Positions 4,101 to 32,290 of a DNA stretch of 34,354 nt are shown here, piece by piece (within the stretch, counting starts at the first letter, position 1; each line of letters opens with the position of its first letter). The translations under genes and the position numbers were made by a program. The stretch is from an uncultured Lachnospiraceae bacterium (GTDB taxonomy: Bacteria > Bacillota > Clostridia > Lachnospirales > Lachnospiraceae), in assembly GCA_902800325.1 (NCBI GenBank), contig CADCDW010000019.1, positions 23,291-57,644 on the forward strand, in the 5' to 3' direction. The notes beneath the pieces were generated by a model that saw only the letters and a list, made by a program, of their open reading frames with translations, was not told the origin of the DNA and made no database searches.

Positions 4101-4116
4101 TGTTTCACGTGAAACA
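4101..4116. promoter_or_regulatory. parS site 1 (perfect)
   Basis: The 16-base palindrome TGTTTCACGTGAAACA is an exact match to the conserved chromosomal parS sequence that ParB binds and from which it spreads. Confidence 0.97.
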
Positions 4117-4189
4117 TACTAAATTAACAATTCAATAATAAAGCTGGTATTTTAAAGCATATAATTTCTATTAAATTATTTTACTATAA

Positions 4190-4205
4190 TGTTTCACGTG
4201 AAACA
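4190..4205. promoter_or_regulatory. parS site 2 (perfect)
   Basis: Exact TGTTTCACGTGAAACA, 89 bp from site 1. Confidence 0.97.
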
Positions 4206-4396
4206 TTAAAACATATTTTTTAATATTATTAAATTATATTATATAATATTTAAATTTATTTGTTATATCAATTGACTATGTTATATTGTTAACCAAACAA
4301 AACCTTTTCAAATATAAAAAACATATTATTTAATTTAGGAAACATATATTTTAATTATTATAAGATATTTTTAATAATTTAATAAATTTATTATAA

Positions 4397-4412
4397 TGTT
4401 TCACGTGAAACA
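4397..4412. promoter_or_regulatory. parS site 3 (perfect)
   Basis: Exact TGTTTCACGTGAAACA, 207 bp from site 2 and outside the tandem array. Confidence 0.97.
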
Positions 4413-4845
4413 TTATAAATACAAATTTGTTACGCTATTATAAAATTACTCAAATTCCAAAAGTCATCCTGCTTTTTTCTTGCAGGAATAATATTTAACT
4501 TAAAACTCGCTGAAACAAAAAAATGCGAATAGTGTAATGTATCAAAATACAAACTTTTCATTGAATAGTAAGAATTGCATTAGAAATTAAATAATTTAAA
4601 TATTACACTTTAAAAAAATAGTTTCAACTTACACATCATAATATTTATAGAAGTCTTATATGTTATTCTTAATATAATATGTAAAACAACAAATTATCAG
4701 ATAAACTATCCTTGATAAAAGAAAACTATATAAATCATTCTAAAAAGAAAAATAATATTTATAAAATTGCTATTATACAATCTGCTAAATATACTTGTTA
4801 GTATATAAACGCCATTACGAATTAATTGTAACATGAAATCTAAAA

Positions 4846-5127
4846 TGTTTCACATGAAACACAAAATGTCCTATTATAAAGCATTTCTGATAACATAACG
4901 GATAACAAAAACATGTTTCACGTGAAACATAAAGTAACTATTAAAAACTCTCATGATAACATAACAGGTAACAAATCATGTTTCACGTGAAACATAAAGC
5001 ATCTATTAAAAGCTCTCATAATAACACAACGGATAACAAAACATGTTTCATGCGAAACATAAAAGTATTTATTATAAAACTCACATATTAACATAGCAGA
5101 TAGCAGAGATATGTTTCACGTGAAACA
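4846..5127. repeat. Tandem array of five parS-bearing units, 65-68 bp period
   Basis: Sites start at 4846 (TGTTTCACATGAAACA, one change), 4914 (perfect), 4979 (perfect), 5044 (TGTTTCATGCGAAACA, two changes) and 5112 (perfect). Spacings are 68, 65, 65 and 68 bp. The spacers are related to one another (a common TATTAAAA / CTCATRATAACA / GGTAACAAA-like run), so the array arose by duplication of a whole unit. The period is close to six helical turns, which would place the sites on roughly one face of the DNA. Degenerate copies alternate with perfect ones. Confidence 0.95.
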
Positions 5128-5317: not shown

Positions 5318-6109
5318 ATGGGAAGAATTATAGCTGTCGCCAACCAGAAGGGCGGAGTTGGAAAAACCACGACTTCTATTAATCTTGCAGCTTGTCTTGC
5401 AGAAAAAGGACAGAAGGTTCTTGCAGTGGACATGGATCCACAGGGTAACATGACAAGCGGTTTAGGTGTAGATAAAAATTCATTACAAAATACTATTTAC
5501 ACTGCTATGTGTGAAGAATGTAATGTAGGTGAGTGTATGATTGTTCATCCACTTGAAAACAAAAAAATGAACCTCAGTCTTCTTCCGGCCAACAGAGACT
5601 TAGCCGGAGCAGAGGTAGAATTATTTATAGAAGCCGATAAACCACAATATATTTTAAAGGAATTATTAGCGAAGGTAAGAGACAAATTTGACTTTGTAAT
5701 TATTGACTGCCCACCTGCACTTGGAATTCTTACTGTCAATTCCATGACAGCAGCTGACACAGTACTTGTACCTATACAGTGTGAGTTTTTTGCATTGGAC
5801 GGACTTACACAGCTTATGTACACAATTAACCTTATAAAGAAAAAGTTAAATAAGTCTCTTGAAATTGAAGGTGTTGTTTTTACAATGTTTGATGCCAGAA
5901 CCAATTTATCTTTGGAGGTTGTCGAAAACGTTAAAAACAATCTGGATCAATTTATATATAAAACAATCATACCGAGAAATGTACGTTTAGCTGAAGCACC
6001 AAGCTTTGGATTGCCAATTAATCTTTATGACAGCAGATCTGCAGGTGCAAAAGGTTATAGAGATTTAGCTGACGAAGTAATTAACAATAAACTATATGCC
6101 GGATTATAA
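5318..6109 (+). CDS. parA: Chromosome-partitioning ATPase ParA/Soj
   Basis: A 263-residue ParA ATPase, normal length for the chromosomal Soj family. The deviant Walker A KGGVGKTT is at residues 11-18, the switch I region DPQGN follows at about 41-45, and the Walker B-like VIIDCPPALG is near residue 130. ParA dimerises on ATP, coats the nucleoid and is stimulated by ParB to move origins apart; in Bacillus the homologue also regulates DnaA. It is followed by parB 115 bp downstream and preceded by the parS array. An AGGTTAG/GGAGG ribosome site supports the start. The symbol soj would be equally valid. Confidence 0.97.
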   Translation: MGRIIAVANQKGGVGKTTTSINLAACLAEKGQKVLAVDMDPQGNMTSGLGVDKNSLQNTIYTAMCEECNVGECMIVHPLENKKMNLSLLPANRDLAGAEVELFIEADKPQYILKELLAKVRDKFDFVIIDCPPALGILTVNSMTAADTVLVPIQCEFFALDGLTQLMYTINLIKKKLNKSLEIEGVVFTMFDARTNLSLEVVENVKNNLDQFIYKTIIPRNVRLAEAPSFGLPINLYDSRSAGAKGYRDLADEVINNKLYAGL

Positions 6110-6180
6110 ATTATAAACCAATAATTTAATTACAAATTATAAACCAATAATTTAATTATAAATTATAAACCAATAATTAA
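6108..6180. repeat. 26 bp tandem repeat, almost three copies, between parA and parB
   Basis: Copies begin at 6108, 6134 and 6160 and share AATTATAAACCAATAATTTA. The first copy overlaps the last bases of the parA stop codon. There is no terminator hairpin in this gap, so parA and parB are probably cotranscribed through the repeat. Confidence 0.85.
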
Positions 6181-6224
6181 ACTATCACATATACGTTACG
6201 ATAAATTAGGAGGAAAATAACCAG

Positions 6225-7151
6225 ATGGCAGTAAAACGAGGATTGGGAAGAGGGCTTGATAATCTTATTCCTACCGGAGATGATAAAAAAGGAAAAACAA
6301 CTGCGGCAAAACAACCTGTTAAAACTGAAGTTAAAGAAATAGTTAAAGAAGTAGTTAAAGAGGTTGAGCGCACCATTAACATAAACAAGATAGAACCAAA
6401 CAAAAGTCAGCCGAGAAAACATTTCGATGAAGATGCTTTAGCCGAGCTTGCTGATTCCATAAAACAATATGGCATAATCGAACCTCTTGTTGTAGCTAAA
6501 CGCAATAAATATTATGAAATAATTGCAGGTGAAAGACGTTGGAGAGCGGCCAGACTTGCAGGTCTTAAAGAAGTACCTGTAGTAATAAAAGATTTTACGG
6601 ATCAGGAGATAGTTGAAATAGCTCTTATAGAAAATATTCAACGTGAAGACCTTAATCCAATTGAAGAGGCTCATGCTTATGAAAGATTAATTAAAGAATT
6701 TAATCTTAAGCAGGATGAAGTTGCCGAACGAGTTTCAAAGAGTAGAACCACAATTACCAACTCGCTAAGGCTCTTAAAACTTGCGGAACCGGTTCAACAG
6801 ATGCTTATCGATGACATGCTAACAACCGGTCATGTAAGAGCATTAATCAGCATAGAAGATTCTGCTCTTCAGTATGATACTGCACTTTATGTATTTGATA
6901 AAAAATTAAGTGTTCGTGAAACTGAAAGTTATGTTAAGAAAGTACTTAAAGGTGGTACTCCTAAAAAAGCTGTTGAAGTAACTGAAGATTTTTCCTTCTT
7001 ATATAAAGAGATTGAAGAAAGACTTAAAAACACACTTGGAACAAAAACTACCATCAAAGCATCAGGCAGAAATAAAGGAAAAATTGAAATTGAATATTAT
7101 TCAGAGGAAGACTTGGACAGGATAGCTCACATGCTTTATAACGCAAGATAG
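6225..7151 (+). CDS. parB: Chromosome-partitioning protein ParB (Spo0J type, CTP-dependent clamp)
   Basis: A 308-residue ParB. The basic N-terminal tail (MAVKRGLGRGLDNLIP) is the ParA-stimulating segment typical of the family. The CTP-binding domain carries GERRWRA at residues 102-108 and ENIQRED at 136-142. A helix-turn-helix for parS recognition lies at about 161-185 (LKQDEVAERVSKSRTTITNS), and the C-terminal ~60 residues form the dimerisation domain. Residues 25-50 are a repetitive lysine/valine/glutamate linker. AGGAGG precedes the ATG. ParB clamps onto parS and spreads; eight sites lie 1.1-2.1 kb upstream. No separate noc gene is present nearby. Confidence 0.97.
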   Translation: MAVKRGLGRGLDNLIPTGDDKKGKTTAAKQPVKTEVKEIVKEVVKEVERTININKIEPNKSQPRKHFDEDALAELADSIKQYGIIEPLVVAKRNKYYEIIAGERRWRAARLAGLKEVPVVIKDFTDQEIVEIALIENIQREDLNPIEEAHAYERLIKEFNLKQDEVAERVSKSRTTITNSLRLLKLAEPVQQMLIDDMLTTGHVRALISIEDSALQYDTALYVFDKKLSVRETESYVKKVLKGGTPKKAVEVTEDFSFLYKEIEERLKNTLGTKTTIKASGRNKGKIEIEYYSEEDLDRIAHMLYNAR

Positions 7152-24199: not shown

Positions 24200-24231
24200 A
24201 AAAACAAAAGGTCACTTAATTTTAGTGACCT
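24200..24231 (-). terminator. Attenuating terminator between rpmH and rnpA
   Basis: GGTCACT (24210-24216) and AGTGACC (24224-24230) form a seven-pair stem; on the minus strand it is followed by TTTTGTTTTT. The stem overlaps the rpmH stop codon. It probably reduces readthrough from rpmH into rnpA. Confidence 0.75.
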
Positions 24232-24364
24232 ACGCTGATAACTGCTTTCTACCTTTTGCTCTTCTTGCGGCCAATACTTTTCTTCCGTTAGCTGTGCTCA
24301 TTCTCTTTCTGAAACCATGAACCTTTGAACGCTGTCTCTTCTTTGGCTGAAATGTCATCTTCAT
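24230..24364 (-). CDS. rpmH: 50S ribosomal protein L34
   Basis: A 44-residue, very basic protein, too short for a long-ORF search: it begins [20 protein letters not shown], continues [20 protein letters not shown] and ends QLSA, the standard L34 sequence. AGGAGG lies nine bases before the ATG. It is the first gene of the leftward rpmH-rnpA-yidD-yidC-jag operon, driven by a near-consensus promoter at 24423-24451. In most Firmicutes dnaA starts on the other side of this promoter; here dnaN does. Confidence 0.98.
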
Positions 24365-24422
24365 AATGGTAATCCTCCTTTTCTTCTTATTATAAATGTC
24401 ATATTAAAAGACACCTTTGCCT

Positions 24423-24451
24423 ATTATATGTAGAAACACACCATTAGTCAA
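24423..24451 (-). promoter_or_regulatory. Strong sigma-A promoter for rpmH
   Basis: On the minus strand: TTGACT (24451-24446), a 17 bp spacer and TATAAT (24428-24423), about 60 bp before the L34 start. Confidence 0.9.
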
Positions 24452-24479
24452 GCAATTTTTGACTTTTTTAAGTTCTTTT

Positions 24480-25200
24480 TATATTAAATTCCTTATTATT
24501 TATATAAATAATTATCCACCATTTTTTTATAAAAATATAACTTTTTTAATTAAATTTACATAACTTTTTCCACAAAATGTGTAAAACCTGTGGATAACTT
24601 ACTAATTTTATGTTTATTTTTTATTTTTTTAAGTAAATAAGACACTTTTCAAAATGTGTATAACTGTGAGTTAATAAATTTTTACTTTACATAAATTATT
24701 TATTTATTGATTTATTAATGAAAAATGTAAAAAACTAATTTTACTAATTGTCTCTTTTATGACAGGCGTAATATTTGTAATTTATTAATCTTTTGAATAT
24801 TAATTTGTTAAATATAATCTGTTAATTATTAATCTTTTAATTTTTCTATTAATGCTTTAAACGATAATTATGCATTTCTTTTACCGTAGAAATGCGTGAA
24901 CAATAATCAACACCTTATACTCCTGTTTACACATATATTTTTTATTATATTTCTTGATTATTCTTCCAATTTATAGTATTATATTTGATAGGTGTGCGAG
25001 TGGGTTTGAAAGGAAAAATTATCAACAATAATTAACATTAAATTTATTGAAAAACAACATTTTTTTAACAATCTTAAAGTTAGATTTTACCTAACGTTAA
25101 GGGACTTATATACAAATCCACAATCATTAATATTAAGTATACTGATTTATTATATATATTTATATATAAAGCGCGTCCACGAAGGGAGTTTATTTTTATT
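24480..25200. other. oriC region (DnaA boxes, AT-rich unwinding tract), no dnaA
   Basis: DnaA-box candidates: TTATCCACC (24512-24520), TTTTCCACA (24566-24574), perfect TGTGGATAA (24589-24597), perfect-consensus TGTGTATAA (24655-24663) and TTATCAACA (25019-25027). The tract 24600-24880 is almost pure A/T and suits an unwinding element. The position between divergent rpmH and dnaN is the classic Firmicutes origin. No dnaA gene or fragment is readable in any frame here. A GTTAGATTTTACCTAAC palindrome lies at about 25079-25095. Confidence 0.82.
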
Positions 25201-26316
25201 ATGAAAATCAAATGTTCAAAGTCAAATCTTTTATCTGCTTTAAATATCGTTTCAAAAGCAGTTTCAACCAAGACTACAATGCCTATACTTGAATGTATAT
25301 TAATTGAAGTATATGCAGATAAAATTAAGCTTACGGCAAATGACCTGGAGTTAGGTATAGAGACTATACTTAAAGGTGATGTTGTTGAAATGGGAAGAAT
25401 AGCTATAGAAGCTAAAATTTTCACTGACATTATAAGAAAACTTCCTGATAGTGAAGTATTTATAGAATCAACTGAAGATTATAAAACTATCATAAGATGT
25501 GAAAAGTCAAAATTCAGTATTCCTTCCAAGTCAGGTGATGATTTTACGGAGCTTCCGGAGATAGAAAAAGGTAAGGGTATTAATATTTCACAGTTCACTT
25601 TAAAAGAAATAATCAGACAGACTATTTTTTCAATCTCAGATAATGAAAATAATAAGCTTATGACAGGTGAATTATTTGAAGTAAAAGATGGTAAACTTAC
25701 TGTAGTATCTCTTGATGGTCATAGAATTTCTATGAGAAATGTTGAAATTGATTCCAATATAGAGGATACAAAAGTAGTTGTTCCGGGAAAGACACTGAGC
25801 GATCTTTCAAAGATAATTGATGGTGGAGTAGATGATATGGTTAATATCTATTTCTCGGACAGACATATTTTATTTGAATTTGAAGATACGCTTGTTGTAT
25901 CACGTCTTATAGAAGGTGAGTATTTTAAGATTGTTCAGATGCTTTCTATGGATCATAAGATTAAGATTAATGTTAATAATAAGGAGTTTTTAAATTGTAT
26001 AGACAGAGCTTCTCTTCTTATCAAAGAATCAGATAAGAAACCTATAGTTATGAGTATCAAGAATGATAATGTTATGTATCTTAAGGTTGATACCCTTATG
26101 GGTTCCATGAATGAAGAAATAGAAATAGCTAAAGAAGGTGATGAATTAATCATCGGCTTTAATCCAAGATTTTTAATGGATGTTTTAAGGGTTATTGATG
26201 ATGAGGATATTACAGTTTATATGAGAGATTCCAAGTCACCGTGTATTATAAAAAATGATGCAGAGGATTATATATACGTAATTTTACCTGTAAATATAAA
26301 TGCTGACGCTTATTAA
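25201..26316 (+). CDS. dnaN: DNA polymerase III beta sliding clamp
   Basis: A 371-residue clamp of normal length with the three repeated clamp domains (about 1-125, 128-245, 246-371). Recognisable segments are KSNLLSALNIVSKAVSTKTTMPILECILIEV, TVVSLDGHRISMRN and the C-terminal YVILPVNINADAY close. It holds the replicative polymerase on DNA. GGGAG lies about ten bases upstream of the ATG. It is the first gene of the rightward dnaN-yaaA-recF-gyrB-gyrA series, a place normally taken by dnaA. Confidence 0.97.
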   Translation: MKIKCSKSNLLSALNIVSKAVSTKTTMPILECILIEVYADKIKLTANDLELGIETILKGDVVEMGRIAIEAKIFTDIIRKLPDSEVFIESTEDYKTIIRCEKSKFSIPSKSGDDFTELPEIEKGKGINISQFTLKEIIRQTIFSISDNENNKLMTGELFEVKDGKLTVVSLDGHRISMRNVEIDSNIEDTKVVVPGKTLSDLSKIIDGGVDDMVNIYFSDRHILFEFEDTLVVSRLIEGEYFKIVQMLSMDHKIKINVNNKEFLNCIDRASLLIKESDKKPIVMSIKNDNVMYLKVDTLMGSMNEEIEIAKEGDELIIGFNPRFLMDVLRVIDDEDITVYMRDSKSPCIIKNDAEDYIYVILPVNINADAY

Positions 26317-26383: not shown

Positions 26384-26602
26384 ATGAATCATATTTTAAA
26401 ATTAAGAGATGGTGAAGAATTCATAAAGCTTGGACAGGCTTTAAAAGCAACAGGAATTGCAGACTCAGGTATAGATGCAAAGGAGATTATAATACAAGGT
26501 CTTGTTCTTGTGGATGGAGAAGTTGAAACCAGAAGAGGAAGAAAGCTTTATGATGGAATGGAAGTATGCTATGACGATGAAGTTATAAGCATACAAAAAT
26601 AG
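26384..26602 (+). CDS. yaaA: S4-domain RNA-binding protein (YaaA/RlbA type)
   Basis: A 72-residue S4-like RNA-binding protein: FIKLGQALKATGIADSGIDAKEIIIQGLVLVDGEVETRRGRKLYDGMEV is the family pattern. It is found between dnaN and recF in many Firmicutes, and in Bacillus subtilis this gene is yaaA. It probably binds rRNA or ribosomal subunits. It lies 67 bp after dnaN and 18 bp before recF. Confidence 0.93.
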   Translation: MNHILKLRDGEEFIKLGQALKATGIADSGIDAKEIIIQGLVLVDGEVETRRGRKLYDGMEVCYDDEVISIQK

Positions 26603-27697: not shown

Positions 27698-27759
27698 GTT
27701 TCTAATAAACTTATGCAATGCCATATATTAAAAGGCATATGATTTGTAAGGAGGACACT

Positions 27760-29682
27760 ATGAGTAACAAAAATGAAACTAACTACGGTGCAGACCAAAT
27801 CCAGATTTTGGAAGGTTTGGAAGCAGTTAGAAAAAGACCCGGTATGTATATAGGAAGTACATCTACAAGAGGTTTACACCATCTTGTTTATGAGATTGTT
27901 GATAATGCTGTAGATGAAGCACTTGCAGGTTATTGTACTGAAATTAATGTTTCTATCAATGAAGATAATACAATAACAGTTGTAGACAACGGTAGAGGTA
28001 TTCCTACAGGTATACATGAAAAAGCAGGCATACCTGCGGTTGAAGTTGTATTTACCATACTTCATGCCGGTGGTAAATTTGGCGGTGGCGGATACAAGGT
28101 TTCAGGTGGACTTCATGGTGTTGGCGCATCGGTTGTTAATGCGCTTTCTAACTGGCTTGAAGTTGAAGTATCACGTGACGGTAAGATTTACAAACAACGT
28201 TACGAAAGAGGTCATGTAATATATAAACTTAAAGAAGTTGGAAAAACGGATAAAACCGGTACAAAGGTAACATTTGAACCTGATGATACAATATTTGATG
28301 ATGTAGTATTTGAATATGATATACTTAAAACCCGTCTTCGTGAGATGGCATTTCTTACCAAGGGACTTAAGATTACTCTTGAGGATAAGAGGGAAGGTCA
28401 GGAAAAGAAGGGTGAATTTCATTATGAAGGTGGTATAAAGGAATTTGTAGAATACCTTAACAGACATAAGACCGTGCTTTACGATAAGGTTATTTATTGT
28501 GAAGGTCAGAAGGATGATATATATGTTGAAGTAGCATTGCAGCATAATGATTCCTACAATGAAGCCACATACAGCTTTGTAAATAACATAACAACTCCGG
28601 AAGGAGGTATGCACCTTACAGGATTTAGAAGTGCTATAACAAAGGTATTTAATGATTATGCAAGAACCAACAAGATTCTTAAGGATAAGGAAGAAAACCT
28701 TTCAGGTGATGACTTAAGAGAAGGTTTAACTGCTATAGTAAGTATAAAGATTCCTGAACCTCAGTTTGAAGGTCAGACCAAGCAGAAACTTGGTAATGCA
28801 GAGGCAAGAACTGCGGTCGAAGGTATAGTTTCGGAAAAGCTTACTTATTTCCTTGAGCAAAATCCTCAGATTGCAAAGGCTATAGTTGGTAAAGCGGTTC
28901 TCGCTCAAAGAGCCAGAATGGCAGCCAGAAAAGCAAGAGATGTAGCCAGAAAATCATCTCTTGAAAGCAGTATGGCTTTACCGGGTAAGCTTGCGGACTG
29001 TTCGGATAAGGATCCTAAAAACTGCGAAATATATATAGTTGAGGGAGATTCTGCAGGTGGTTCGGCCAAGACTGCAAGATCAAGAGCTACTCAGGCTATA
29101 CTTCCTCTTAGAGGTAAGATTCTTAATGTAGAAAAAGCAAGAATAGACAGAATCCTTGGCAATGAAGAGATAAAGGCTATGATTACAGCCTTTGGTACAG
29201 GTATTAAAGAAAACTTCAATATAGAAAAATTAAGATATAACAAGATAATTATTATGACAGATGCCGATGTAGACGGAGCTCATATCGCAACTCTTATGCT
29301 TACGTTCTTCTACAGATTTATGCCTGATCTTATAAGACAGGGACATGTGTATCTTGCACAACCACCTCTTTATAAGCTTGAGAAAAATAAGAAGACATGG
29401 TATGCATACAGCGACGATGAGCTTGCAAAGATACTTGATGAGGTCGGACGCGATAACAATAATAAGATTCAGCGTTATAAAGGTCTTGGTGAGATGGATG
29501 CGGAGCAGTTATGGGATACAACCATGGATCCTGAAAAGAGAATTCTTCTCCGCGTATCTATAGATGATGACAATGAGTCAGAGCTTGATGTAACATTTGA
29601 CACACTCATGGGTGAAAGAGTGGAACCTAGACGTGAATTTATTGAGACAAATGCGAAATTCGTAAAGAATCTCGACATCTGA
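27760..29682 (+). CDS. gyrB: DNA gyrase subunit B
   Basis: A 640-residue GyrB, the short Gram-positive form. The GHKL ATPase domain shows [42 protein letters not shown] and [15 protein letters not shown]. The TOPRIM domain shows [10 protein letters not shown] and [10 protein letters not shown]; the C-terminal [21 protein letters not shown] is intact. The ATG at 27760 follows AGGAGG; an in-frame ATG at 27718 has no ribosome site. It pairs with GyrA to introduce negative supercoils. Confidence 0.98.
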
Positions 29683-29698
29683 TGGAGGTAAGGTTTAA

Positions 29699-32290
29699 AT
29701 GGATGAGAATACAATTTTTGATAAAGTCCAGGAAGTAGATTTGAAGAAAACAATGGAAAACTCATACATTGATTATGCGATGAGTGTTATCGCTGCCAGA
29801 GCTTTGCCGGATGTAAGAGATGGTCTTAAGCCTGTACAGAGAAGAATTCTTCATTCTATGGTTGAACTTAGTAATACGCCGGATAAGCCGCACAGAAAAT
29901 GTGCCCGTATCGTCGGTGATACAATGGGTAAATATCACCCTCATGGTGACAGTTCCATATATGAAGCATTGGTTAAGCTTGCTCAGGAATGGAATACAAG
30001 ATATCCTCTTGTAGACGGTCACGGAAATTTTGGTTCTGTCGATGGAGACGGAGCTGCCGCAATGAGATATACGGAAGCAAGACTTTCCAGGATTTCTCTT
30101 GAAATGGTAGCAGATATCAACAAGGATACTGTTGATTTTGTGCCAAATTTTGATGAAACAGAAAAAGAACCTGTGGTACTTCCAAGCCGTTATCCTAACC
30201 TTCTGGTAAACGGCACATCAGGTATAGCAGTAGGTATGGCTACAAACATACCGCCACATAATTTAAGAGAAATTGTCAATGCCGTTGTTAAGATAATTGA
30301 TAACAGGGTATTGGAAGACAGAGAAACTGAGATAGATGAAATCTTAGATATAGTTAAAGGTCCGGATTTTCCGACGGGTGCACAGATACTTGGTACTTCA
30401 GGTATAGATGAAGCTTATAGAACAGGTAGAGGTAAAATTAAGGTAAGAGCTATATCCGAGATAGAACCTATGGCCAACGGAAAGCAGCGTATAGTAGTGA
30501 CAGAGCTTCCTTATATGGTCAATAAAGCCAAGCTCATTCAAAAGATAGCTGAGCTTGTTAAGGAAAAGAAGATAGACGGTATAACAGACCTTCGTGATGA
30601 ATCCTCACGTGAAGGTATGAGAATAGTTATCGAACTTAGAAAAGACTGTAATGCCAATATCATACTTAATCAGTTATATAAACATACTCAGATGCAGGAT
30701 ACATTTGGTGTAATCATGCTTGCTCTTGTAGATCAGGAGCCAAAGATACTCAATCTCCTTGATATGCTTGGATATTATCTTAAGCATCAGGAAGATGTAG
30801 TAACCAGAAGAACTAAGTTTGATCTGGACAAGGCAGAAAGACGTGCCCATATAGTTGAGGGCTTACTTATCGCACTTGACAATATCGACGAAGTAATAAA
30901 GATAATAAGAGGATCAAAAGCAGTAGCAGATGCTAAGCTTGCTCTTATGGAAAAATTCGGACTTACCGAGATTCAGGCAGAAGAAATCGTAAATATGCGA
31001 CTTCGTGCTCTTACCGGTTTGGAAAGAGAAAAGCTTGAAAATGAGTTTAAGGAGCTTATGGCTAAAATTGCAGAATTGCGTGCAATCCTTGCAGATGAGA
31101 AGAAGTTGCTTGGAGTTATCAAGGAAGAAATACTTATACTTGCTACAAAGTATGGCGATGACAGAAGAACTTCAATAGGTATAGATATGGATGATGATCT
31201 TACAGTAGAGGATCTCATCAAGAAGGAAAATGTAGTTATTGCCATGACTAAGCTTGGTTATATCAAGAGAATGACAGTCAATAACTTCAAGAGTCAAAAC
31301 CGAGGAGGTAAGGGTATAAAGGGTATGCAGACAATTGAAGATGACTTTATCGAAGATCTCTTCATGACCACAACCCATCACTATATTATGTTCTTTACCA
31401 ATATGGGTAAGGTATACAGACTTAAGGCATATGAGATACCTGAAGCAAGCAGAACTGCCAGGGGTACTGCAATTGTAAACCTACTTCAGCTTATGCCTGA
31501 TGAAAAGGTTACAGCAGTAATTCCTATCCTTAAGTATAGAGAAGACAGATACTTATTTATGTGTACTAAAAATGGTATCGTCAAGAAGACAAAGATTACA
31601 GAATATGCAAATGTAAGAAAATCAGGACTTGCAGCCATAACCTTAAAGGAAGGCGATGAGCTTATCGAGGTTAAGGCAACTGACAACAGAAAAGATATCC
31701 TTCTTGTAACTAAGCATGGTATGTGTATCAGATTTAATGAATCTGATGTAAGAAGTACAGGCAGAACATCTATGGGTGTTATCGGTATGAATGTAAATGA
31801 TGGAGATGAAATCATTGGCATGCAGCTTGATACCCAGGGTGAAGCTCTTCTTATCGTATCAGAAAATGGACTTGGTAAGCGTACACCTATCGAAGAATTT
31901 ACTCCACAGAGACGTGGTGGAAAGGGTGTTAAGTGCTATAAGATTAATGACCGTTCAGGTGAAGTAATCGGATTTAAGGCGGTAAATGATGACAATGAAA
32001 TCATGTTGATAACTAACCAGGGAATTGTTATTAGAATTCTTTGTAAAGATATCTCCAAGCTTGGAAGAATCACAACCGGCGTTAAGCTTATCAATATGGA
32101 TATCGAGCATGATGTCACTGTTGCAAGTATTGCCAAGGTTAGACAGAAGTCAGCAGAAGAATCCGAATCTTTAGATCAGTCTCTTGAAGCTCTCGAAAAA
32201 GAGATGAATGATAATGACAATGCAGAGGGAGCACCTGAGATTGAAACAGATGAGTCAGATGATACAAGCGATGGCTCTGATAATAAGTAA
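29699..32290 (+). CDS. gyrA: DNA gyrase subunit A
   Basis: An 863-residue GyrA. The catalytic tyrosine is Y124 (AAMRYTEARLS). The quinolone-determining region reads HPHGDSSIYEAL, with Ser at position 85 (E. coli S83) and Glu at 89 (E. coli D87), i.e. no common resistance change. The C-terminal domain contains QRRGGKG, the GyrA box needed for DNA wrapping, and a related QNRGGKG. The last ~45 residues are an acidic tail (ESLDQSLEALEKEMNDNDN...). GGAGG precedes the ATG, 16 bp after gyrB. Confidence 0.98.
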   Translation: MDENTIFDKVQEVDLKKTMENSYIDYAMSVIAARALPDVRDGLKPVQRRILHSMVELSNTPDKPHRKCARIVGDTMGKYHPHGDSSIYEALVKLAQEWNTRYPLVDGHGNFGSVDGDGAAAMRYTEARLSRISLEMVADINKDTVDFVPNFDETEKEPVVLPSRYPNLLVNGTSGIAVGMATNIPPHNLREIVNAVVKIIDNRVLEDRETEIDEILDIVKGPDFPTGAQILGTSGIDEAYRTGRGKIKVRAISEIEPMANGKQRIVVTELPYMVNKAKLIQKIAELVKEKKIDGITDLRDESSREGMRIVIELRKDCNANIILNQLYKHTQMQDTFGVIMLALVDQEPKILNLLDMLGYYLKHQEDVVTRRTKFDLDKAERRAHIVEGLLIALDNIDEVIKIIRGSKAVADAKLALMEKFGLTEIQAEEIVNMRLRALTGLEREKLENEFKELMAKIAELRAILADEKKLLGVIKEEILILATKYGDDRRTSIGIDMDDDLTVEDLIKKENVVIAMTKLGYIKRMTVNNFKSQNRGGKGIKGMQTIEDDFIEDLFMTTTHHYIMFFTNMGKVYRLKAYEIPEASRTARGTAIVNLLQLMPDEKVTAVIPILKYREDRYLFMCTKNGIVKKTKITEYANVRKSGLAAITLKEGDELIEVKATDNRKDILLVTKHGMCIRFNESDVRSTGRTSMGVIGMNVNDGDEIIGMQLDTQGEALLIVSENGLGKRTPIEEFTPQRRGGKGVKCYKINDRSGEVIGFKAVNDDNEIMLITNQGIVIRILCKDISKLGRITTGVKLINMDIEHDVTVASIAKVRQKSAEESESLDQSLEALEKEMNDNDNAEGAPEIETDESDDTSDGSDNK

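Follow-up and report, generated by a model that had tools for sequence, protein, structure and literature searches.

In the genome of an uncultured Lachnospiraceae bacterium (G000) and in two related species-level genomes (G012 and G027), the initiator gene dnaA is flanked by an alpha-amylase-family gene on one side and uvrB on the other, and the rpmH-dnaN region is dnaA-less. The sister genomes G030, G010, and G009 keep rpmH-dnaA-dnaN, with the amylase gene directly before uvrB and no dnaA there. As read from these genomes, the relocation is real, rare, and lineage-specific, with clear before-and-after states. We consider it quite probable that dnaA was relocated into the amylase-uvrB site in a rearrangement that also left a continuous origin, put dnaA under an amylase promoter, and left the old dnaA promoter to drive dnaN. 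The anatomy of this relocation is firm, while its regulatory and mechanistic consequences are what we infer from it.

The rpmH-dnaN region

The window, i.e., the whole 34,354-nt stretch analyzed here, is part of a 57,644-bp contig (C19) of G000, a genome of 2.77 Mb in 145 contigs. The start codon of the leftward rpmH (24362 to 24364) and the rightward dnaN are separated by an AT-rich gap of 836 bp (two 1-kb windows cover it, with GC values of 0.25 and 0.23; Table 1). The only ORF of at least 80 aa reaching into this gap was antisense and overlapped dnaN (25080 to 25430), and no dnaA was present. A tblastn search with DnaA found no remnant of the gene there (best E = 6.3) or in the corresponding gap of G012 (best E = 0.55), and DNA matches of the sisters' dnaA segment to the gap (E < 0.02) all involved the promoter-proximal 20 to 28 bases of that segment; a dnaA fragment left behind was thus ruled out. 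Exact DnaA boxes (TTWTNCACA) numbered four, against a shuffle mean of 0.17, and none of 300 shuffles reached four. With up to one mismatch allowed there were 10, against a mean of 4.3 (5/300 shuffles reached 10). The ORF, GC, box, and tblastn results bear out the first-pass annotation, which had described this gap as AT-rich, furnished with DnaA boxes and devoid of dnaA.

Downstream of dnaN lie a 72-aa ORF (yaaA; 26384 to 26602), then recF, gyrB, and gyrA; every member of the gene order expected at a Firmicute origin except dnaA is present, in order. In a comparison covering 18 loci, the 44-aa RpmH was 95 to 100% identical in 13/13 matched origin-side loci, including those of G012, G027, and the sisters. 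GC skew, which had been proposed as a way of mapping the origin, flipped sign at the gap: the windows adjoining it on the left had values between −0.15 and −0.26, those on the right between +0.21 and +0.32.

Table 1. Features of the rpmH-dnaN region in window coordinates
Feature	Position	Strand	Remarks
rpmH (ribosomal protein L34), bounding the origin region on the left	24230..24364	-	read from sequence
dnaA-less rpmH-dnaN intergenic region, apparently a fused, continuous origin	24365..25200	.	arrangement common to G012 and G027
oriC1-type DnaA-box cluster	24512..24663		starts 24512+ (1 mismatch), 24566+, 24578-, 24589-, 24655-; sisters' spacing within 1 bp
Spacer between the origin halves	24664..24950	.	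mostly poorly conserved; ~130 bp longer than in G012 and G027
Stranded dnaA promoter-like block, now facing dnaN	24954..25010	+	TTGATT, 17 nt, TATTAT
oriC2-type DnaA-box-like sites	25019..25114	+	starts 25019, 25062, 25106, each with 1 mismatch
ATCCACA, then degenerate DnaA-trio-like stretch and AT-rich putative unwinding region	25115..25170	.	alignment with genus members
dnaN (sliding clamp)	25201..26316	+	NCBIfam TIGR00663, 275.5 bits against a cut-off of 137.65

The gap is internal to its contig, its end being ~9.2 kb from the contig end, and equally dnaA-less rpmH-dnaN gaps of 703 and 704 bp were found in G012 and G027. That dnaA really sits in the origin and was lost from the draft through an assembly or binning artefact is a reading to which we give almost no weight. 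It could draw on the fact that the three relocated genomes are all multi-contig drafts and that three genomes of the genus contain contaminant origin contigs, but both junction types lie inside contigs and agree across the three assemblies, including RUG10816 and RGIG4472 (roe deer omasum), and the rejoined origin is ordered conserved sequence, not a random break. An assembly error, which the first-pass annotation had considered the way in which its proposal might fail, does not account for the gap, since both parts of the rearrangement recur in two further species-level genomes.

The box sets on either side of the former gene have kept their order. In their own coordinates, the oriC1-type boxes start at 146, 200, 212, 223, and 289 in G012 and at 104, 159, 171, 182, and 248 in G030. 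A 67-bp block (24538 to 24604) is identical between G000 and G012, even though linked genes have a synonymous divergence of ~0.5 to 0.8 (lower, 0.18, for rnpA). The oriC2-type sites are spaced by 43 and 44 in G000, G012, G027, and G030 alike. Reverse TTATCAACA sites just 3' of dnaA (two in G030, one in G010) are missing from the relocated genomes; some oriC2 sites beside the former dnaA 3' end evidently were lost along with the gene. In genus members that align with the sequence preceding dnaN, there are clear CTACTACTATTACTACTA trios, and these repeats resemble the published DnaA-trio of Clostridioides difficile (PMC7561715). The aligned trio position is conserved, the trio itself being degenerate in the three relocated genomes as well as in the sisters G030 and G010.

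In Bacillus subtilis and C. difficile, the bipartite origin is described as rnpA-rpmH-oriC1-dnaA-oriC2-dnaN (PMC7561715), and the region studied here is like it in its flanking genes, the box cluster after rpmH, the second box set, and the trio-like and AT-rich stretches before dnaN. The two differ in that here both clusters are kept and the spacer gene dnaA between them is gone. Measured between the final box of the oriC1-type set and the earliest box retained in the oriC2-type set, the distance was 364 bp in G000 and 233 bp in both G012 and G027; in two sisters that keep dnaA, it was ~1.65 kb (G030) and 1.6 kb (G010). With its halves 0.23 to 0.36 kb apart instead of ~1.6 kb, the split origin would thus have turned continuous, and DnaA boxes and putative unwinding region all fall within one intergenic stretch (24512 to 25170). 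The two-part origin is now apparently one piece, by loss of dnaA between its halves, a point that the first-pass annotation had not raised. In B. subtilis, both origin halves were reported to be essential in vivo (PMC6669920).

The promoter-like block in front of the second box set corresponds to the one preceding dnaA in the sisters, which reads TTG, ~20 nt, TATTAT, then GTATGCG; its genus-wide form varies around CTTG, ~20 nt, TAGTA and TAT, then GTATGCG. Thirty-seven base pairs of it (24974 to 25010) are identical in all three relocated genomes. The retained block lies ~0.2 kb upstream of dnaN, with upstream DnaA boxes still present. The case for a promoter rests on this conservation, since a promoter scan over the region was by itself near chance (11 matches found, 8.7 in shuffles). 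On the simplest reading, dnaN uses the former dnaA promoter block and stays near DnaA boxes. The first-pass annotation had argued that the move uncoupled dnaN from DnaA autoregulation; this is probably the reverse of what happened, as it was dnaA that left the block and the boxes and dnaN that retained both. Excess DnaA in B. subtilis has been reported to repress the dnaA-dnaN operon and to deplete DnaN (PMC6669920, citing Ogura 2001).

Two further features of the window were recorded. Six perfect parS palindromes (TGTTTCACGTGAAACA) and two near matches lie at 4101 to 5127, directly upstream of parA-parB (5318 to 7151) and ~20 kb from the origin, a count reached in 0/100 shuffles. At the right contig end, 32814 to 34244 has a GC of 0.43 to 0.45, above the rest of the window, and contains two leftward ORFs, one of them with HPFNDGNGR, which we take to be a Fic-like motif; this segment is possibly acquired DNA.

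The new site of dnaA

A profile search of G000, a 97% complete draft, gave a single protein with Bac_DnaA_C (103 bits) and two further PF00308 places lacking this domain. The gene lies on a different contig from the origin (C7, 23074 to 24441; L005, 8074 to 9441), between the amylase-family gene and uvrB. Initiator gene and origin are hence apart, as the first-pass annotation had proposed. Its product is full length (TIGR00362, 499.3 bits against a cut-off of 343.9; PF00308 and PF08299 above cut-off), and dN/dS values of 0.01 to 0.02 indicate strong purifying selection on the relocated gene. The upstream neighbor carries the Pfam domains Alpha-amylase and Alpha-amylase_N and is preceded by genes that we take to be tilS-hpt-ftsH. 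Downstream follow uvrB (assigned by Pfam), uvrA, fba, and rpsJ with an S10 leader.

The distance from the amylase stop to the dnaA start is 18 nt in G000, 27 nt in G027, and 76 nt in G012. In the sisters, the amylase-uvrB gap contains a long stem-loop, GTACAGAA...TTCTGTAC or near it (z = −8.4 in G030), around a GAAC-N4-GTTC core that is presumably LexA-like. In the relocated genomes, dnaA is inserted between the amylase stop codon and this old amylase terminator stem-loop. On the coding strand of G000, no terminator-like site was found in L005 6035 to 9532, the amylase-dnaA junction included. A putative promoter, TTGAGA-17-TAAAAT (a 10/12 match), is recognizable before the amylase gene in all seven genomes aligned, and an inverted repeat over its −35 element, TTATTGA-N7-TCAATAA, was spotted by eye (imperfect in G000). 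The promoter pattern, with up to three mismatches, occurs once each in G000, G012, G027, and G030 and not at all in G019; no amylase-promoter regulon was found.

From this arrangement, dnaA is likely carried on the amylase transcript. That it instead has a promoter of its own, in the amylase gene or in the short gap, and is no gene of an amylase operon strikes us as unlikely, though well worth keeping in mind. The 76-nt gap of G012 with its stable hairpin pairing the ribosome-binding site and a 9/12 promoter-like match in the G000 amylase tail (L005 7829) speak for it, but the gap is just 18 nt in G000 and 27 nt in G027, promoter-like matches in this region do not exceed those of shuffles (18 against 16.9), and no conserved promoter was noticed in the amylase-tail alignment. 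The G012 gap (L050 9915 to 10003) contains a GC-rich hairpin, and its predicted fold (−24.3 kcal/mol; z = −2.0; 6/200 shuffles fold as well) sequesters the ribosome-binding site of dnaA by base pairing; neither G000 nor G027 has a gap long enough for such a hairpin.

At its new site, behind the amylase gene and apart from dnaN, dnaA lacks a cluster of exact boxes and is not arranged as an autoregulated dnaA-dnaN operon. The ftsH-amylase interval of G000 (1,279 bp; L005 4641 to 5919) holds eight one-mismatch DnaA-box-like sites and no exact one (2/300 shuffles reach eight), and DnaA may bind upstream of the amylase-dnaA unit in this genome. In the last 400 bp before the amylase gene, there were three such sites in G000 (24/300 shuffles) and one each in G027 and G012, so the enrichment is not a common feature of the relocated genomes. 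The interval itself, which adjoins the new site of dnaA, is a variable spot (loci L159, L161, L040, L005, L162, and L169 were compared): ~0.35 to 0.4 kb in G013 and G019, 1.3 kb in G000, 4.3 kb in G027, and longest in G009 (6.8 kb) and G030 (7.2 kb).

Firmicute origins usually adjoin dnaA, and the origin could in principle have moved as well, with replication now beginning near amylase-dnaA-uvrB. GC skew is no proof of today's start site, since it could not have re-formed after a recent origin shift; the current skew is compatible with such a shift, and the somewhat enriched box-like sites between ftsH and amylase in G000 (above) fit it too. Even so, we regard a moved origin as very improbable. 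At the new locus, the amylase tail has one exact box, whereas the dnaA-uvrB gap and the ftsH-amylase interval have no exact box at all; box-like sites before the amylase gene are few in G027 and G012; GC skew is one-signed along contig C7 (11 windows of 4 kb); and the rpmH-dnaN box clusters have been kept between diverged species.

How far dnaA now lies from the origin was estimated from G019 (2,908,239 bp), the only genome of the genus assembled as a single contig, because all three relocated genomes are fragmented drafts. There, dnaA and dnaN sit at the skew minimum (based on 19/20 skew samples), and uvrB lies on the other side, ~301 kb away from dnaA. The order ftsH-amylase-uvrB-uvrA is shared, and, if gene order is conserved, dnaA would be ~300 kb from the origin in G000.

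Distribution and history of the rearrangement

Within the genus, 31/37 genomes had a DnaA_C match, with dnaN directly downstream in 28 of these 31. The remaining three, in which dnaA and dnaN are on different contigs, are G000, G012, and G027, all with amylase-dnaA-uvrB at one place and the dnaA-less rpmH-dnaN at the other. Among the named loci matched with a DnaA protein, dnaN was just downstream in 55/59, the four exceptions being the relocated loci L040 (RUG10816) and L050 (RGIG4472), a contig end (L096), and a locus without detected dnaN (L077). In the family sample, where 108 genomes of 219 searched could be paired among the matches listed, the match starts lay 457 to 923 bases apart on one strand in 106/108; the exceptions to canonical pairing, among the matches listed, were G000 and G178. 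In G178, and in the dnaN-bearing genomes without DnaA_C (G047, G054, G152, and G192), a contig ends 28 to 239 bases upstream of dnaN, so these five give no evidence of relocation. G013, with neither a dnaA nor a dnaN match, has amylase-uvrB without dnaA as in the sisters. Both sites in three genomes, together with the ancestral state in the sisters, uphold the proposal that dnaA changed its place and that the origin, dnaN, and the gene order beyond it remained as they were.

The dnaN of the window is 98 and 97% identical to those of G030 and G010. The discordant gyrB, gyrA, and uvrA trees suggest gene exchange in the group, and the relocated dnaA might accordingly be suspected of having come from outside and displaced the resident gene. 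We think this highly unlikely, since the G000 DnaA shares 95% identity with that of either canonical sister (G030 and G010) and is placed within the clade of these sisters (100/100), in a tree with few rows. All three relocated copies group in a single clade (100/100) nested in that of the sisters.

The three relocated genomes are also grouped by the yidC-rnpA-jag (100/99) and amylase (100/99) trees, more weakly by uvrB (83/87) and dnaN (67/80), and without support by recF (49/3). They are not grouped in the uvrA, gyrB, and gyrA trees, and the joint dnaN-recF-gyrB tree places G000 with G030 and G010 (95), the relocated three not being together. In the gyrB tree (97/96) and weakly in the gyrA tree (71/61), G012 and G027 go with G009 and not with G000 (window 27718 to 32290). 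This pattern suggests recombination next to the origin. Taken together, the trees are best read as probably a single move in a common ancestor with later recombination; there may have been more than one relocation event.

Several other candidates were rejected. Second dnaA copies in G012, G009, and G010 (L167, L171, and L172; dnaA 42 to 54%) were judged from their diverged neighbors to lie on contaminant contigs. A dnaA/dnaN dS ratio of 0.97 in one unmoved pair had first hinted at faster synonymous change after the move, but the ratios of the relocated pairs (2.13 to 2.35) fall within the range of 44 unmoved pairs (0.67 to 2.77; median, 1.76), taken from 325 pairs of 26 loci with dnaA dS of ≤2.5 and dnaN dS of 0.05 to 1.2. 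A mobile element as the cause of the move was also dismissed: apart from a 38-bp match at 84%, the spacer (24670 to 24965) occurs just once in the genome. Beside the relocated dnaA, we found no origin-derived sequence (best match, 10 to 15 bases).

We propose that, in the ancestor of the three species, dnaA and its ribosome-binding site, without promoter and DnaA boxes, would have landed between the amylase-family gene and uvrB, and that the copy inside the origin was lost. Replication would still begin at rpmH-dnaN, from a continuous origin of ~0.7 to 0.84 kb at which DnaA need not loop out a gene. dnaA would be transcribed mainly from the amylase promoter, as the second gene of a unit that extends to the old amylase terminator, and would thus not be repressed by DnaA at a promoter of its own. 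The old dnaA promoter would drive dnaN, which DnaA may still repress. If DnaA may repress dnaN but not dnaA, control would run one way, from DnaA to dnaN, with the loop open. The stronger physiological version, in which DnaA supply is open-loop under the amylase promoter, initiation tracks carbohydrate use, DnaA acts on dnaN, and the compact origin works unlooped, is a tentative idea that we would not expect to hold in full.

Relation to known origins and meaning

In the E. coli line, the separation of oriC from dnaA is old; here, it is recent and lies inside a single genus, whose sister genomes still show the ancestral state. The layout is otherwise like that of E. coli oriC (PMC4285127) in that initiator gene and origin are apart and the origin lies within one intergenic region. 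An engineered E. coli has been described in which the sole, constitutive dnaA sits at another chromosomal site and dnaN-recF is left at the old place (PMC10235992); its authors held that initiation control in that strain does not critically depend on autoregulation, and the construct argues that loss of autoregulation is survivable in E. coli. The present genomes are like it in having dnaA off its autoregulated promoter and dnaN with recF left behind, and unlike it in that the change is natural, the origin is apparently also fused, and dnaN keeps the old promoter-like block in place of a new promoter. Wigglesworthia and Blochmannia are natural dnaA-less endosymbionts (PMC4285127). They share with the relocated genomes the absence of dnaA from the origin neighborhood, but are without any dnaA, whereas here a conserved sole copy is present elsewhere. 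We found no report of a natural dnaA relocation or of such a fused origin in Firmicutes in the literature covered, in which subscription journals were thinly represented.

The initiator gene, its promoter, and dnaN, which are usually together in Firmicutes, are here separated. If dnaA is indeed ~300 kb from the origin, its copy number would be somewhat lower in growing cells. Origin finders keyed on dnaA would search the wrong place in such genomes. The clade without the spacer gene has persisted through the divergence of three species while its sisters retain the gene, and relocated and sister genomes together offer a ready comparison for the function of the split origin.
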